Source: Pleomorphomonas sp. T1.2MG-36
GTDB lineage: Bacteria > Pseudomonadota > Alphaproteobacteria > Rhizobiales > Pleomorphomonadaceae
Assembly: GCF_950100655.1 (NCBI RefSeq)
Contig: NZ_CATNLY010000051.1
Coordinates: 62,001-126,000 of the forward strand
DNA length: 64,000 nucleotides
Direction: 5' to 3'
In this document: positions 49,657-54,054 of the stretch, piece after piece
Numbering within the stretch: the first letter of the stretch is position 1
Layout of the letters: every line of letters begins with the position of its first letter
Notes under the pieces: model-generated
The model's input: the letters and a program-made list of their open reading frames with translations, nothing else
Database searches by the model: none
Told to the model about the DNA's origin: nothing
Position numbers and translations under genes: made by a program

Positions 49657-50730
49657 TCAGAAGCCCGGCAGGGCCAGTGGCGGGTGCGTCACGGCCATCG
49701 CCTTGAACAGCGTGCCCATGTCGTCCGGGCCGGCCAGTCGTTCCACGGCGGCGACGATGTTGGCCTGATCCTCGGCGCTGCGGCCGGCGCCGAGGGCGCC
49801 CGCCCGTTCGGCGAGGCCCATGGCGAGAAGGAAGTCGCCCTGCGTCACCGGTCCGAGCACGGTGGCGCCCTCGGCGGCGGCCGCACCGGCGAGGCGGTCG
49901 AAATCGACGTGGGCGGTGAGGTCGCATTCGCCCGGTTCGCGCAATGGGGCGGCGTAGTGGTGGGCGCGCACCGCTTGCAGCGTTTCGCCGAAGCCGCTCT
50001 TCACGTGGCCATAGTCGAAGATCAGCGCCGCGCCGCCGTGCTCGACGAGGCGGTGGGCGAGCGTGCCGACGATCGCCTCGGCCGGGCGGTTGATCTCGGC
50101 CACCGCGCCAAGCGGCGTCTCGGCGGCGCCGTCCGGCAGCAGCGCCGGATCCGGGGCGGCGGCGCCGATGCCGAAGGCGAGGTTGCCGTCGTCGTCGAGG
50201 CCGACGACGCGCTCGCGCCAGCCGCGTTCGCTCTGGACGAACTGGCGGATCGGCAGGGCGTCGAAGAACTCGTTGGCGACGACGAGGAGCGGCCCGTCCG
50301 GCAGGTCGTCGACGCGGTCGTGCCAGATGGGGCTGGCAAGGCCCGTGAGGCCGGCGGCCTGCCGTCGGCGCAGCTCGGGGCTGATCTCGACGAGGTGAAC
50401 CTCGGCGGCGCGGATGAAGCCGGGGTCGACGCGGCCGGCTCGCAGCAGGTCGGCCATCAGCGTGCCGCGTCCGGGGCCGAGCTCGACCAGCGACAGGCGC
50501 GGCGGGCGGCCGAGCGCCTCGTAGGCGGAGACGCACCAGATGCCGATCAGTTCGCCGAACATCTGGCTGATTTCCGGCGCGGTGATGAAGTCGCCCTCGA
50601 GGCCGATGGCAGTGCGCGTGGTGTAGTAGCCGTGGTCCGGATCGGACAGGACGAGGCTCATGTAGTCGGCGACGGAGATCGGGCCGACGGCGCCGATCAG
50701 CCGGATGATCTTGTCTTCGAGCGCCGTCAT
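49657..50730 (-). CDS. MidA/NDUFAF7-family SAM-dependent methyltransferase
   Basis: A 357-residue DUF185 protein, the bacterial relative of NDUFAF7, which dimethylates an arginine of complex I subunit NDUFS2. It has PISVADYMSLVLSDPDHGYY, DFITAPEISQMFGELIGIW, the SAM motif LVELGPGRGTLMADLL and VVANEFFDALPIRQFV. The start at 50730 overlaps the lgt stop by four bases (ATGA). A role in complex I maturation is inferred from homology. Confidence 0.93.
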   Translation of the reverse strand: MTALEDKIIRLIGAVGPISVADYMSLVLSDPDHGYYTTRTAIGLEGDFITAPEISQMFGELIGIWCVSAYEALGRPPRLSLVELGPGRGTLMADLLRAGRVDPGFIRAAEVHLVEISPELRRRQAAGLTGLASPIWHDRVDDLPDGPLLVVANEFFDALPIRQFVQSERGWRERVVGLDDDGNLAFGIGAAAPDPALLPDGAAETPLGAVAEINRPAEAIVGTLAHRLVEHGGAALIFDYGHVKSGFGETLQAVRAHHYAAPLREPGECDLTAHVDFDRLAGAAAAEGATVLGPVTQGDFLLAMGLAERAGALGAGRSAEDQANIVAAVERLAGPDDMGTLFKAMAVTHPPLALPGF

Positions 50731-51566
50731 GACGATGGCTCCGGCCGCCGGGTCCGGCCGCCGAGCGCCAGGGCGATCAGCGTGATGGCGGCGATGGCGG
50801 TGACGATCGACAGGACCATGCCCATGGTCAGGAAGTTGCCGAAGAGGAAGCCGACCTGCGGGTCGGGTTCGCGCACCGTCTCGACCAGCGTGCGGGCGGC
50901 GGCGTAGATCAGGCCGAAGATGCCGACGGTGAGGCCCGGCTTCCTGAGGATGCCGGCCTTCCAGATGAGGGGCGTCAGCACGGCGAAGATCAGGAGGCCT
51001 TCGAGACCGGCTTCGTAGAGCTGGCTCGGGTGGCGCGGCATGCCGTCGGAGTTGGGGAAGATGAAGGCCCAGGGCACGTCGGTGACGCGGCCGTAGAGTT
51101 CGCCGTTGACGAAGTTGGCGAGGCGGCCGAGGAACAGGCCGACCGGCACGGCGGCGGCCGTGAGGTCGAACACCGTCAGGACGTTGAGGCCGCGCCGACG
51201 GGCGAACAGATACTGGGCGATGGCGGTGCCGATGAAGCCGCCATGCACCGACATGCCGCCGTGCCAGATTTGCAGGATCTCCCAGGGATTCTCGCGATAG
51301 GCCTCGAAATTGTAGAACAGGATGTAGCCGATGCGGCCGCCCAGCACGACGCCGAGCGTCATCCAGACCAGGAGATCGTCGATGTCGGTGGCCTTCGGCC
51401 GCTTCAGGCCGTCCCAGAGCCGCTCCTTGTCGACCATGCGGATGATGTACCACCAGCCAAAGATCAGCCCGATGACATAGGCGAGCCCGTACCAGCGAAT
51501 GGAGATCGGCCCGAACTCCAGAAGAACGGGGCTGATCGGCGGGAAGGGCAGGGCGAAAAGCGGCAT
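50727..51566 (-). CDS. lgt: Prolipoprotein diacylglyceryl transferase
   Basis: A 279-residue inner-membrane enzyme that adds a diacylglyceryl group to the lipobox Cys of prolipoproteins. About seven helices are seen; key motifs include the active-site HGGMSVHGGF (His), GGRIGYILFYN and GRLANFVNGELYGRVTD (Arg, Asn, Glu). It starts the lgt-midA-(NTase)-pgeF-lipoprotein-prs minus-strand run; upstream, the TetR/Cfr-like pair separates it from ubiK. Confidence 0.96.
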   Translation of the reverse strand: MPLFALPFPPISPVLLEFGPISIRWYGLAYVIGLIFGWWYIIRMVDKERLWDGLKRPKATDIDDLLVWMTLGVVLGGRIGYILFYNFEAYRENPWEILQIWHGGMSVHGGFIGTAIAQYLFARRRGLNVLTVFDLTAAAVPVGLFLGRLANFVNGELYGRVTDVPWAFIFPNSDGMPRHPSQLYEAGLEGLLIFAVLTPLIWKAGILRKPGLTVGIFGLIYAAARTLVETVREPDPQVGFLFGNFLTMGMVLSIVTAIAAITLIALALGGRTRRPEPSS

Positions 51567-51778
51567 CGTGGTCCTTCTGTCGACTGTCGGCGCGGAACCC
51601 CCGAGGGTGGTATTTCCCGCGAGCGAGGATTGATGGGCGTTTCCGGCCTCGTCAAGCTTATTCGCGTTGCGGTCGAATCTCTGACGGCCAGCCCGCGCGT
51701 TCGAACCCCGAGCGAACGCGCGGGCTCCGCTTCCTAGAGGTTGGACGATTGTGGTCTTGTTTGGGCTTCGGAGGGCGG

Positions 51779-51801
51779 TTTATAACCGACGCAGTGGTTA
51801 T
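51779..51801. promoter_or_regulatory. TetR operator A (upstream of tetR)
   Basis: TTTATAACCG-N6-TGGTTAT. The core ATAACCG-ACG-N3-GGTTAT matches operator B at 52493-52524. It ends 58 bases before the tetR start. Confidence 0.75.
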
Positions 51802-51859
51802 CGACCTTCGGACATGCGGCGTGAGCGGCAGATATCCCACGCCATGACAGGACACGGGG

Positions 51860-52432
51860 ATGCCTCGGCCAAAACTTCACTCGGACGTGGAAATCCTCCA
51901 GAAGGCGAAGGTCGTTCTGCTGCGCGAGGGGCCGGTCGACTTCACCCTGTCCGACGTCGCCAAGGCCGTCGGCATGTCGCGGGCGGCGCTGATCCAGAGG
52001 TTCCAGGACAAGGCGACCATCCATCGCCGGATCATGGAGGAGATGACCGAGGAGGTGAGGGCGTTCTTTGCCGCCTCGCATGCCGAAAGGGACCTCCAGT
52101 CGCTTTGGACATTCCTGAAGGACATGATCGAGGGCATGGACGCGGAGGTCGGCAGCGAAGCCTACCTGCTGCTGTTCTGGGGCGACATCATCGATCCCCA
52201 CCTGCGCGCGCTTGCCCTTGAACGCAACGAGCTGGTTCGCGAGGCCATCGAGCAGCGGTTGCCGCTTCGGCCGCACGATCCCAAGCGCACGTCGGGCTTG
52301 ATCCAGTCAACCTTGCAGGGGGCCTACATGCGCTGGATGGTGAGCCGAGAGGGAGTCCTCTCGGCCTTCATGCGCGATGAGGTCCGCGACCTCCTGGCCG
52401 TCCTCTATCCCGACGAACTCTTCCAGCCGTAG
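51860..52432 (+). CDS. TetR-family repressor of the Cfr/RlmN-like gene
   Basis: A 190-residue TetR protein: HTH in FTLSDVAKAVGMSRAALIQRFQDKATIHRRI, then a helical ligand-binding domain (SLWTFLKDMIEGMDAEVGSEAYLLLFW). The same palindromic operator core occurs before this gene and before the downstream methyltransferase, so it probably represses both. It lies between lgt and ubiK, which are commonly adjacent in Hyphomicrobiales. The inducing ligand is unknown. Confidence 0.88.
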   Translation: MPRPKLHSDVEILQKAKVVLLREGPVDFTLSDVAKAVGMSRAALIQRFQDKATIHRRIMEEMTEEVRAFFAASHAERDLQSLWTFLKDMIEGMDAEVGSEAYLLLFWGDIIDPHLRALALERNELVREAIEQRLPLRPHDPKRTSGLIQSTLQGAYMRWMVSREGVLSAFMRDEVRDLLAVLYPDELFQP

Positions 52433-52492
52433 CGGTCCGCTTCGTTCGCGGCCGTCCGGCCATCCCGCGATTTCGCGTTCCCGGTTCCCGTC

Positions 52493-52524
52493 TTGTATAT
52501 AACCGACGTGACGGTTATATACAA
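52493..52524. promoter_or_regulatory. TetR operator B (upstream of the Cfr/RlmN-like gene)
   Basis: Perfect 13-bp arms TTGTATATAACCG and CGGTTATATACAA around a 6-bp spacer. It overlaps TATATAA-rich promoter-like DNA and is followed by an 84-base leader with GGCCC/GGGCC pairing before the start codon. Confidence 0.85.
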
Positions 52525-52608
52525 GTCCCGGCGTATCGGTGGGTCGTGGGCATGGCCCGGACGGGCCAGGCATCGGCGCCGCAACGGGCAGCCCGAAAGG
52601 AGGGTGGA

Positions 52609-53640
52609 ATGGTTGAGGCAACACCGGCCCTGGGCCTGACGGCGAGCGAGTTTGCCGCGATCGTCGGCACGGAGCCCTCGGCCGTGGCGTACAGGGACAT
52701 TTTCACCTGCCATGAAGACCTGCCGCGAGAGCTGCGGCGCTGGGCGAATGAAAGGAACCTTCGGCTGCGCACCCTCGGCAGGATCAAGTCGGAGCGGGGG
52801 ACGCGGTCGCAGAAGGTGCTGTTCGGCCTTGCGGATGGTTACGCCATCGAGAGCGTGCTCATTCGGCGGCACGACGGGTTCACGGCCTGCATCTCCTCCC
52901 AGGTCGGATGCGCCTTCTCCTGCCGGTTCTGTGCCTCGGGTCAGGCCGGGCTCAAGAGGAACCTCGACAAGCACGAGATCGTCGAGCAGGTCGTCCGTCT
53001 CGGTCCCAAGGTCAACCGGATCGTCTTCATGGGCATCGGCGAGCCGCTGAACAACTATGAGAACGTCCTCGCCGCCATCCGTATCCTGCGCGATCGCGAC
53101 GGAATGGACTTTCCGACGACGGGCATCACGATTTCGACCATCGGCATACCGAAAGCGCTCGCCCGGCTGCGCGAGGAGCACCTCGGCATAAACCTGACGG
53201 TTTCGCTGCATGCGACCACGCAGGAGGTGCGCGACCGGCTCATTCCCGGCAGCCGCAAGCACGACCTCCGCGAGGTCGTCGAACGGGCGATCTCCTGGGC
53301 CGAGCGGCACAACCGCATCGTGACGTTCGTCTATCTCCTGCTGCCGGGCGTGAACGACGGCCGAGACGATGCCGAGCGCCTTGTCCGCATGGTCGTCGGC
53401 AAGCCCGCACGGGTCAACCTGATGCGCTGGAACCCGGTCGAGAGCGTCGACCTCGGCCGACCGACGAACCATGGGCTCCATCGGTTCCGGCAGTGTCTGG
53501 TTCGAGCCGGCGTGCCGGTGGTGGTGCGCGACACCCAAGGGGCGGACATCGATGCCGCCTGCGGCCAGTTGTGGCTCCGCGATCTTCAGGGCGCAAGAGC
53601 GCCGCAGCGGAAGAACTCGCGGTATGATGCCGCGGCGTAG
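52609..53640 (+). CDS. Cfr/RlmN-like radical-SAM 23S rRNA methyltransferase, TetR-controlled
   Basis: A 343-residue radical-SAM enzyme. The 4Fe-4S motif CAFSCRFC has Cys101/105/108; the RlmN-type extra Cys94 lies in TACISSQVG; the methyl-carrying second Cys is Cys318 in DIDAACGQL. VFMGIGEPLNNYENV is RlmN-like; CASGQAGLKRNL resembles Cfr and Firmicute RlmN. Housekeeping alphaproteobacterial RlmN is longer, with a different Cys-loop, so this looks like a second, accessory enzyme. It may methylate A2503 (C2 or C8) or a tRNA. ATG 52609 has AGGAGG at 52598-52603, which fixes the start. C2 versus C8 specificity cannot be read from sequence. Confidence 0.85.
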   Translation: MVEATPALGLTASEFAAIVGTEPSAVAYRDIFTCHEDLPRELRRWANERNLRLRTLGRIKSERGTRSQKVLFGLADGYAIESVLIRRHDGFTACISSQVGCAFSCRFCASGQAGLKRNLDKHEIVEQVVRLGPKVNRIVFMGIGEPLNNYENVLAAIRILRDRDGMDFPTTGITISTIGIPKALARLREEHLGINLTVSLHATTQEVRDRLIPGSRKHDLREVVERAISWAERHNRIVTFVYLLLPGVNDGRDDAERLVRMVVGKPARVNLMRWNPVESVDLGRPTNHGLHRFRQCLVRAGVPVVVRDTQGADIDAACGQLWLRDLQGARAPQRKNSRYDAAA

Positions 53641-53754
53641 ATGCCGAGTCGTTCGTTGGCGTGGCTTCCCGTGGCCTCTTTCCATCTTCCGCTTGAAGCG
53701 GAGCCGGCGAGGGGCCAAATAGAGGGTCTGGCCCGCCATTCGGAGACGACTGCC

Positions 53755-54054
53755 ATGACGACCGGCCCGCAGGGACGCATCTACGACGAATTCGCCAAGC
53801 TGATGAACGACGCCGCCGGCCTCGCTCAGTCGGCCGGGCGGGAAGTTTCCTCGGCCTTCCGTGCCCAGGGCGAGAAGTTCGCTTCCGAACTCGACCTCGT
53901 CCGCCGCGAGGATCTGGAGACGGTGCAGGACATCGCCACGCGCGCGCTGGCCGAAGTGGAGCGGCTCACCGCCCGCGTCGCCGAGCTCGAAAAGCGCCTT
54001 TCCCACAACGAGGCGGAAGCCGCCACCGTCGTCGAAGGCCCCGAAGGGCCGTGA
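53755..54054 (+). CDS. ubiK: UbiK/BMFP (YqiC-like) accessory factor
   Basis: A 99-residue BMFP-domain protein. GRIYDEFAKLMNDAAGLAQSAGREV is the amphipathic membrane-fusing helix, followed by a trimeric coiled coil (RALAEVERLTARVAELEKRL). In E. coli UbiK assists ubiquinone synthesis with UbiJ. The ATG at 53755 gives the family start; the long upstream frame is rejected. In many Rhizobiales it lies directly next to lgt. Confidence 0.88.
   Translation: MTTGPQGRIYDEFAKLMNDAAGLAQSAGREVSSAFRAQGEKFASELDLVRREDLETVQDIATRALAEVERLTARVAELEKRLSHNEAEAATVVEGPEGP

Follow-up and report, generated by a model that had tools for sequence, protein, structure and literature searches.

A probable macrolide-inducible, MrmA-like 23S rRNA methyltransferase cassette annotated as rlmN

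Is a gene that is annotated as rlmN, and that lies behind a regulator gene at an interrupted chromosomal site, a housekeeping methyltransferase or a resistance gene? The question is raised by a gene pair in a 64-kb stretch of DNA from Pleomorphomonas sp. T1.2MG-36 (the window, by which we mean all 64,000 nucleotides analysed), where a gene for a TetR-family repressor (51860..52432, forward strand, 190 amino acids) precedes one for a 343-residue radical S-adenosylmethionine (SAM) RNA methyltransferase (52609..53640, forward strand, ATG start at 52609). An earlier note on this DNA had described a TetR gene and an RlmN/Cfr-superfamily gene with matching operators and had suggested an inducible system for modifying 23S rRNA (or tRNA), possibly for antibiotic tolerance; the open reading frames and both palindromes were confirmed, and the proposal stands as far as a non-housekeeping, TetR-controlled methyltransferase cassette, probably for inducible resistance, but without its link to Cfr. 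We consider it probable that the locus is a mobile, macrolide-inducible, MrmA-like 23S rRNA methyltransferase cassette that is annotated as rlmN. Judged from the DNA itself, it is a gene pair with kinship to MphR and MrmA, a near-identical operator and a full catalytic set. Macrolides are expected to be both inducer and target drug, since the regulator belongs to the macrolide-sensing MphR type; regulator kinship and enzyme phylogeny form two lines which both point to this class of drugs.

The reference for the enzyme is MrmA, an RlmN-type protein from the Clostridioides difficile transposons Tn6110 and Tn7806 that was reported in 2025. According to the available text of that report, E. coli delta-tolC with MrmA showed a rise in the minimum inhibitory concentration (MIC) from 2 to 512-1024 for erythromycin and from 64-128 to 1024 for pristinamycin IA, and the MICs of tylosin, clindamycin, tiamulin, chloramphenicol and linezolid stayed essentially the same (PMC11983580). 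In a tree of 53 rows, chosen from 242 proteins and 86 loci, 19 window-type and 13 MrmA-type rows were split from RlmN and Cfr by a branch with a support of 100/99, which stayed at 100/99 in a second tree after dropping the long-branch rows L080 (Variovorax) and L081 (Nonomuraea). The two groups have 17 residues in common that occur in at most two of the 21 RlmN/Cfr-side rows of the 53-row alignment. The enzyme is 42% identical to MrmA versus 30-37% to nine RlmN-side and Cfr rows, and RlmN proteins of other alphaproteobacterial orders are 41-46% identical to it over the matched part; identity alone thus fails to separate the groups, and the MrmA-type assignment rests on the tree and the diagnostic residues, by which the enzyme is sister to the MrmA-type proteins and is neither a housekeeping RlmN nor a Cfr.

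The catalytic cysteines, which the earlier note had listed as kept, aligned with those of E. coli RlmN: C94, C101/C105/C108, C318 and also E81 correspond to C118, C125/C129/C132, C355 and E105, respectively, with the codons of C94 and the [4Fe-4S] cysteines located at 52888..52932 and that of the methyl-carrier cysteine C318 at 53560..53562 (both on the forward strand). The columns of C94 and C101/C105/C108 hold cysteine in 53 of 53 alignment rows. With its CxxxCxxC motif, partner cysteine, methyl-carrier cysteine and glutamate, the protein has what RlmN/Cfr superfamily chemistry would demand, and it is from these complete catalytic residues that we predict methylation chemistry.

The enzyme could instead be a second RlmN, a paralogue that makes m2A2503 or m2A37 on demand to tune translation under stress and has nothing to do with resistance, a reading that we regard as unlikely. 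In its favour, the protein scored 279.9-280.6 bits on the RlmN model TIGR00048, public annotation calls it RlmN, and a stress-sensing role of RlmN in Enterococcus faecalis is described in the available text of PMC10336011. However, this score lies under the model's cut-off of 290, while the genome has a separate, proper housekeeping RlmN on contig C34 with 386.7 bits, the kind of second gene for which the earlier note had recommended a search. An approximately unbiased (AU) test on the second tree rejected the grouping of the window-type proteins with alphaproteobacterial RlmN (p 3.8e-53), and with it the clustering that would have spoken against the note's proposal; on both grounds we rejected housekeeping RlmN membership. 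In samples of 385 genomes of the class and 398 of the phylum, the window-type gene was found in the window's own genome only; the matches from 21 further genomes of the class sample are 41-46% identical and have the Cys-loop FCxTGT that marks alphaproteobacterial RlmN. Moreover, the gene has an accessory distribution within the genus (4 of 14 genomes) and travels with floR and tet(G), as described below.

By comparison with cassette-free relatives, the pair is an insertion between lgt (50727..51566, reverse strand, PF01790) and the ubiK/BMFP gene (53755..54054, forward strand, PF04380), which flank the cassette on the left and on the right and lie outside it. The inserted cassette of about 2.0 kb (51658..53682) is delimited by breaks in homology: similarity to the cassette-free sites of the same genus ends at 51639-51664 and restarts at 53665-53684 (6 of 10 such loci compared), and the empty sites in six relatives contain just 83-154 other bases in its place. 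That lgt and ubiK are usually neighbours, as the earlier note had stated, was borne out in the 14 genus genomes, of which 10 have an uninterrupted lgt-ubiK site, three (G000, G002 and G008) carry the cassette there, and one (G011) is unresolved, with no lgt in the stretch examined. Among the carriers at lgt-ubiK is P. diazotrophica R5-392 (L031). One of the genomes with an uninterrupted site (G012) has a 68%-identical cassette elsewhere, which comes from another tree branch. Enzyme and regulator were found in an identical set of 4 of 60 related genomes, the window's own included. The GC content of the insert falls within the range of its surroundings, and no mobile gene was seen adjoining the window's own copy. 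A perfect 14-bp inverted repeat with a 9-nucleotide loop (51690-51726) lies within the insert, close to its left end, in the region that separates the divergent genes lgt and tetR.

A Cfr-like enzyme is a still less likely reading, even though the fold and the catalytic residues are the same, the Cfr models do match, and the floR neighbours would make phenicol exposure part of the ecology of the cassette. The matches reached only 192 bits on TIGR04432, against a cut-off of 550, and 194 bits on NF000424, against 530; placement in the Cfr clade was rejected by the AU test on the second tree (p 0.0085), and we dismissed Cfr membership on these results. The model of the enzyme (mean predicted local distance difference test score, pLDDT, of 88.2) has an RlmN fold with 6fz6 as its best match, and the ten best fold matches are all RlmN-type chains, Cfr (9p0p) appearing at rank 11. 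The regulator, too, is of a macrolide-sensor type, and for the sister enzyme MrmA the available part of PMC11983580 records no rise in chloramphenicol, linezolid or tiamulin MICs. The resistance to phenicols, oxazolidinones and pleuromutilins that the earlier note had anticipated therefore loses its footing. From MrmA, resistance to erythromycin and streptogramin B would be expected, without the phenicol, lincosamide, oxazolidinone, pleuromutilin and streptogramin A (PhLOPSA) spectrum.

The regulator belongs to the MphR-type macrolide-sensing repressors by full-length kinship in both sequence and fold. Its best match in the PDB is the macrolide sensor MphR(A) (3frq; E 1.8e-37 over residues 1-185), 6u18, a clarithromycin-biosensor variant, is also among its best matches, and the first match outside MphR is far weaker (E 3.9e-5). 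A model of the regulator, built from 10 sequences with a mean pLDDT of 85.4, gave MphR(A) chains as the first six Foldseek matches with template modelling (TM) scores of 0.72-0.78, after which the E values drop from about 1e-10 to 1e-4. The protein is 42% identical to MphR(A) of an E. coli plasmid, and in an alignment of 19 rows its SRAALIQRF segment as well as V66 and V126 of MphR(A) were identical. In the available texts, these two valines are tied to erythromycin binding (PMC7589898), and MphR responds to erythromycin, josamycin and azithromycin (PMC4551912), the response to erythromycin being also described in PMC9662819. Retention of V66 and V126 is suggestive of a release of the regulator by macrolides.

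We located the main operator at 52492..52525 (forward strand), as a palindrome with perfect arms (52492-52505 and 52512-52525) and a spacing of 6 nucleotides; the arms comprise 14 nucleotides each and not 13 as first noted, and the second copy ahead of tetR (51778..51801) is imperfect, with one mismatch in 14 arm positions. When up to two mismatches are allowed, the 64-kb window has two sites with the core ATAACCG-N6-CGGTTAT, compared with a mean of 0.05 for 100 shuffles; no site like the main operator appeared in 100 shuffles. Over 34 positions, the main operator shares 27 bases with the operator/promoter of mph(A) on an E. coli plasmid (L085), and ATAACCGACGTGAC in that promoter equals its left arm plus spacer exactly. 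Together with the identical SRAALIQRF segment, this likeness predicts that the regulator binds an mph(A)-type operator. All 26 loci scanned, a set that contains duplicates and near-copies, have an operator with at most two mismatches in 14 arm positions ahead of the enzyme gene. Two hexamers, -35-like at 52493-52498 and -10-like at 52516-52521 with a 17-bp spacer, overlap the operator, an arrangement to be expected of a repressor that covers the promoter. The window resembles the mph(A) promoter in that the palindrome is overlapped by a hexamer containing TTG and, after a 17-base spacer, by one beginning with TA; of the 18 sites compared, 15 have the TTG in register and 17 have the TA. The ribosome-binding site of the enzyme gene, AAGGAGGG, follows at 52597..52604 (forward strand). 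A site ahead of tetR with at most one mismatch is present in five distinct loci (the window, L030, L031, L032 and L033), and in L035 and L047 this site has three mismatches; through the putative operator at 51778-51801 we infer autoregulation of tetR. The leader RNA had no unusual structure (z -0.19) and matched no Rfam family at gathering score, and a strict terminator scan gave a single terminator, which is at chance level.

A scan of one genome per species yielded 20 window-type loci. An MphR-type gene precedes the enzyme gene in 19 of them, with an extra gene between the two in L033, and the contig of the twentieth (L041) starts too close to tell but has the operator. floR lies downstream of a LysR gene in seven of the 20 (L036-L042), two of which also have tet(G), and no neighbouring resistance gene of the Rhodobacter plasmid set was found in the remaining loci. 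In the Rhodobacter xanthinilyticus plasmids pEJ02 and pEJ03, two copies of IS1247 enclose the pair together with floR and tet(G). The corresponding region, with floR, is 99.2-99.8% identical to pEJ02 over 3.8-6.4 kb in Brevundimonas (two loci), Kaistia, Sphingomonas and Devosia (two loci), and the longest pieces in Pseudogemmobacter and Allorhizobium are 92.7% and 96.5% identical, respectively. In both plasmid records the gene is named rlmN, and resistance predictions flag only floR and tet(G). The cassette is thus of a type carried by mobile DNA in addition to a housekeeping rlmN of the same genome, as seen from the second RlmN in the window's genome and from the IS1247-bounded plasmid region in relatives; by these comparisons it is both inserted and spread alongside resistance genes, and the latter, together with MrmA kinship, is what the claim of resistance rests on.

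In a scan of neighbouring genes covering 10 proteins from 6 loci, L033 and L049 lie near transfer genes, and L034 and L044 lie near the core genes atpD and dnaE, respectively. Such core chromosomal surroundings, like the window's own lgt-ubiK site, would suit a switch that answers a macrolide-like natural product and an enzyme for self-protection or signalling effects in soil, a reading which differs from a clinical-type resistance cassette mainly in the inducer and which we find the least probable of all, given the near-identical operator and related regulator of mph(A)/MphR(A) and the recent spread in company with resistance genes of clinical classes. Of 72,556 plasmid records, the only two with a window-type copy belong to R. 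xanthinilyticus. A search of 20,395 E. coli records (near mode) did not recover the Rhodobacter cassette, all phage matches were below 60% identity (38 records), and viral contigs, scanned once, yielded no relative that could be confirmed. Three single loci deserve mention. In Brevundimonas bullata (L047:4944-6007) the enzyme gene is split over two frames, either by decay or by sequencing error; a 6.3-kb contig filed as Nitratidesulfovibrio oxamicus (Desulfovibrionaceae; L043) has an alphaproteobacterial cassette, by contamination or wide transfer; and in Sphingopyxis sp. JAI128 (L048:6848-8845) a rifampin-monooxygenase-like gene lies near the cassette, scoring 443 bits, which is below the curated cut-off of 800, with a broader family scoring higher.

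Several points weigh against a macrolide-inducible, MrmA-like resistance cassette. For both trees, the software issued a warning about long inner branches, so that false joining may occur at any support. The 42% identity to MrmA means that substrate or drug spectrum may differ, and the available text of PMC11983580 leaves MrmA's own target base open. The MrmA sequence was itself identified through printed cloning primers and not by an accession; two database proteins, P0130 and P0132, share a 327-residue stretch whose two ends are exactly those given by the primers. The hexamers of the promoter are weak (3 and 4 matches of 6), a strict promoter scan gave no sigma-70 match, and the second operator is clear in the five distinct loci only. 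Regulation is not kept everywhere, for two lineages have, by separate events, an insertion element that disturbs the regulator gene. In Sphingomonas sp. LC-1 (L039:3600-4442), the MphR-type gene is broken by about 840 inserted bases that contain two transposase-like frames, the enzyme gene behind it being unbroken, and on the Rhodobacter plasmids (L050:5637-7640 and L051:9844-11847) IS1247 abuts tetR, whose product starts with MWV versus MPRPKL in other copies; one might guess that these insertions fit an occasional loss of repression. Finally, drug resistance, repressor binding and rRNA modification in window-type members are all predictions.

On balance, we favour the inducible MrmA-like cassette, which would operate as follows. 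As long as no drug is present, the MphR-type repressor would occupy, as a dimer, the 34-bp operator overlapping the enzyme promoter, and probably also the weaker site ahead of its own gene. Once it has bound erythromycin or another macrolide of that kind, the repressor would leave the operator, and the MrmA-type radical-SAM methyltransferase would be made. This enzyme would methylate a 23S rRNA adenine within or close to the macrolide site, at C2 or C8 by the chemistry shared by RlmN and Cfr, and would thereby lower the binding of 14-membered macrolides and perhaps of streptogramin B. Repression and release are proposed from homology and from the near-identical operator; macrolide binding, induction and resistance we infer for the window-type branch as a whole.

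Among known systems, the mph(A)-mrx(A)-mphR(A) operon of E. coli plasmids has a 42%-identical regulator and 27 of 34 promoter/operator bases in common with the cassette, but that operon governs a macrolide phosphotransferase and a transporter, and mphR is its last gene, whereas the window pair governs a ribosome methylase and its tetR precedes the enzyme gene with an upstream region of its own. MrmA and the window enzyme have in common the superfamily branch (100/99), the full catalytic set, the 17 diagnostic residues and carriage on mobile elements, and MrmA-type relatives, too, bear the rlmN label in records. They differ in host (Clostridia versus Alphaproteobacteria), in sequence (42% identity) and in control, since the window-type enzyme comes with an MphR-type repressor and its operator, whereas the annotated genes around two MrmA-type loci include none of the TetR family. 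The first of these loci (L052:479-7891), on a Paraclostridium bifermentans plasmid, comprises a major facilitator superfamily (MFS) transporter gene, hflX and an MrmA-type 'rlmN' (45% identical to the window's), followed by two hypothetical genes and tetB(P); in some bacteria HflX has a connection with resistance to macrolides and lincosamides, so that the plasmid may hold a second macrolide-resistance locus with a gene of the MrmA type at its centre. The second (L053:1131-8567) is a mobilisable element of Monoglobus with relaxase, TnpW and recombinase genes, and its MrmA-type gene is annotated rlmN. The Cfr family (cfr(A), cfr(C), cfr(D)) is alike in its fold, its [4Fe-4S] and methyl-carrier cysteines and its status as mobile resistance genes, but at 30-31% identity it forms a separate clade with a PhLOPSA spectrum and not one of 14-membered macrolides. 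Housekeeping RlmN is alike in fold and chemistry, yet it forms a separate clade and has its own copy in the same genome. Erm enzymes likewise confer inducible macrolide resistance by 23S rRNA methylation, as is proposed for the window cassette, but they are not radical-SAM enzymes, methylate N6 of A2058, and are usually induced through attenuation with no TetR repressor.

In the open-licence literature we found no report linking MphR with RlmN, nor floR with rlmN in Brevundimonas, and PMC11983580, in its available text, was the only one on an RlmN-type macrolide-resistance enzyme, although an earlier description may exist elsewhere. The sister branch of MrmA now extends to Alphaproteobacteria, where the regulator points to macrolides independently of the enzyme; an MphR-type regulator on this sister branch thus supports a macrolide role for the whole branch. 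We lean, by a little, towards a broader view, in which MphR-type-switched radical-SAM 23S rRNA methyltransferases, on plasmids and beside floR, form an unrecognised transferable macrolide-resistance family in Gram-negatives and may methylate an adenine carbon in the macrolide site itself. We know of no characterised radical-SAM methylase that modifies a position in that site. The cassette offers a testable inducible promoter and a tractable route to the modified base that the MrmA report leaves open. Current annotation hides this type of gene, as it does on the two Rhodobacter plasmids where it is called rlmN, and, if the broader view is true, such genes would easily be missed by resistance surveys because of that label.

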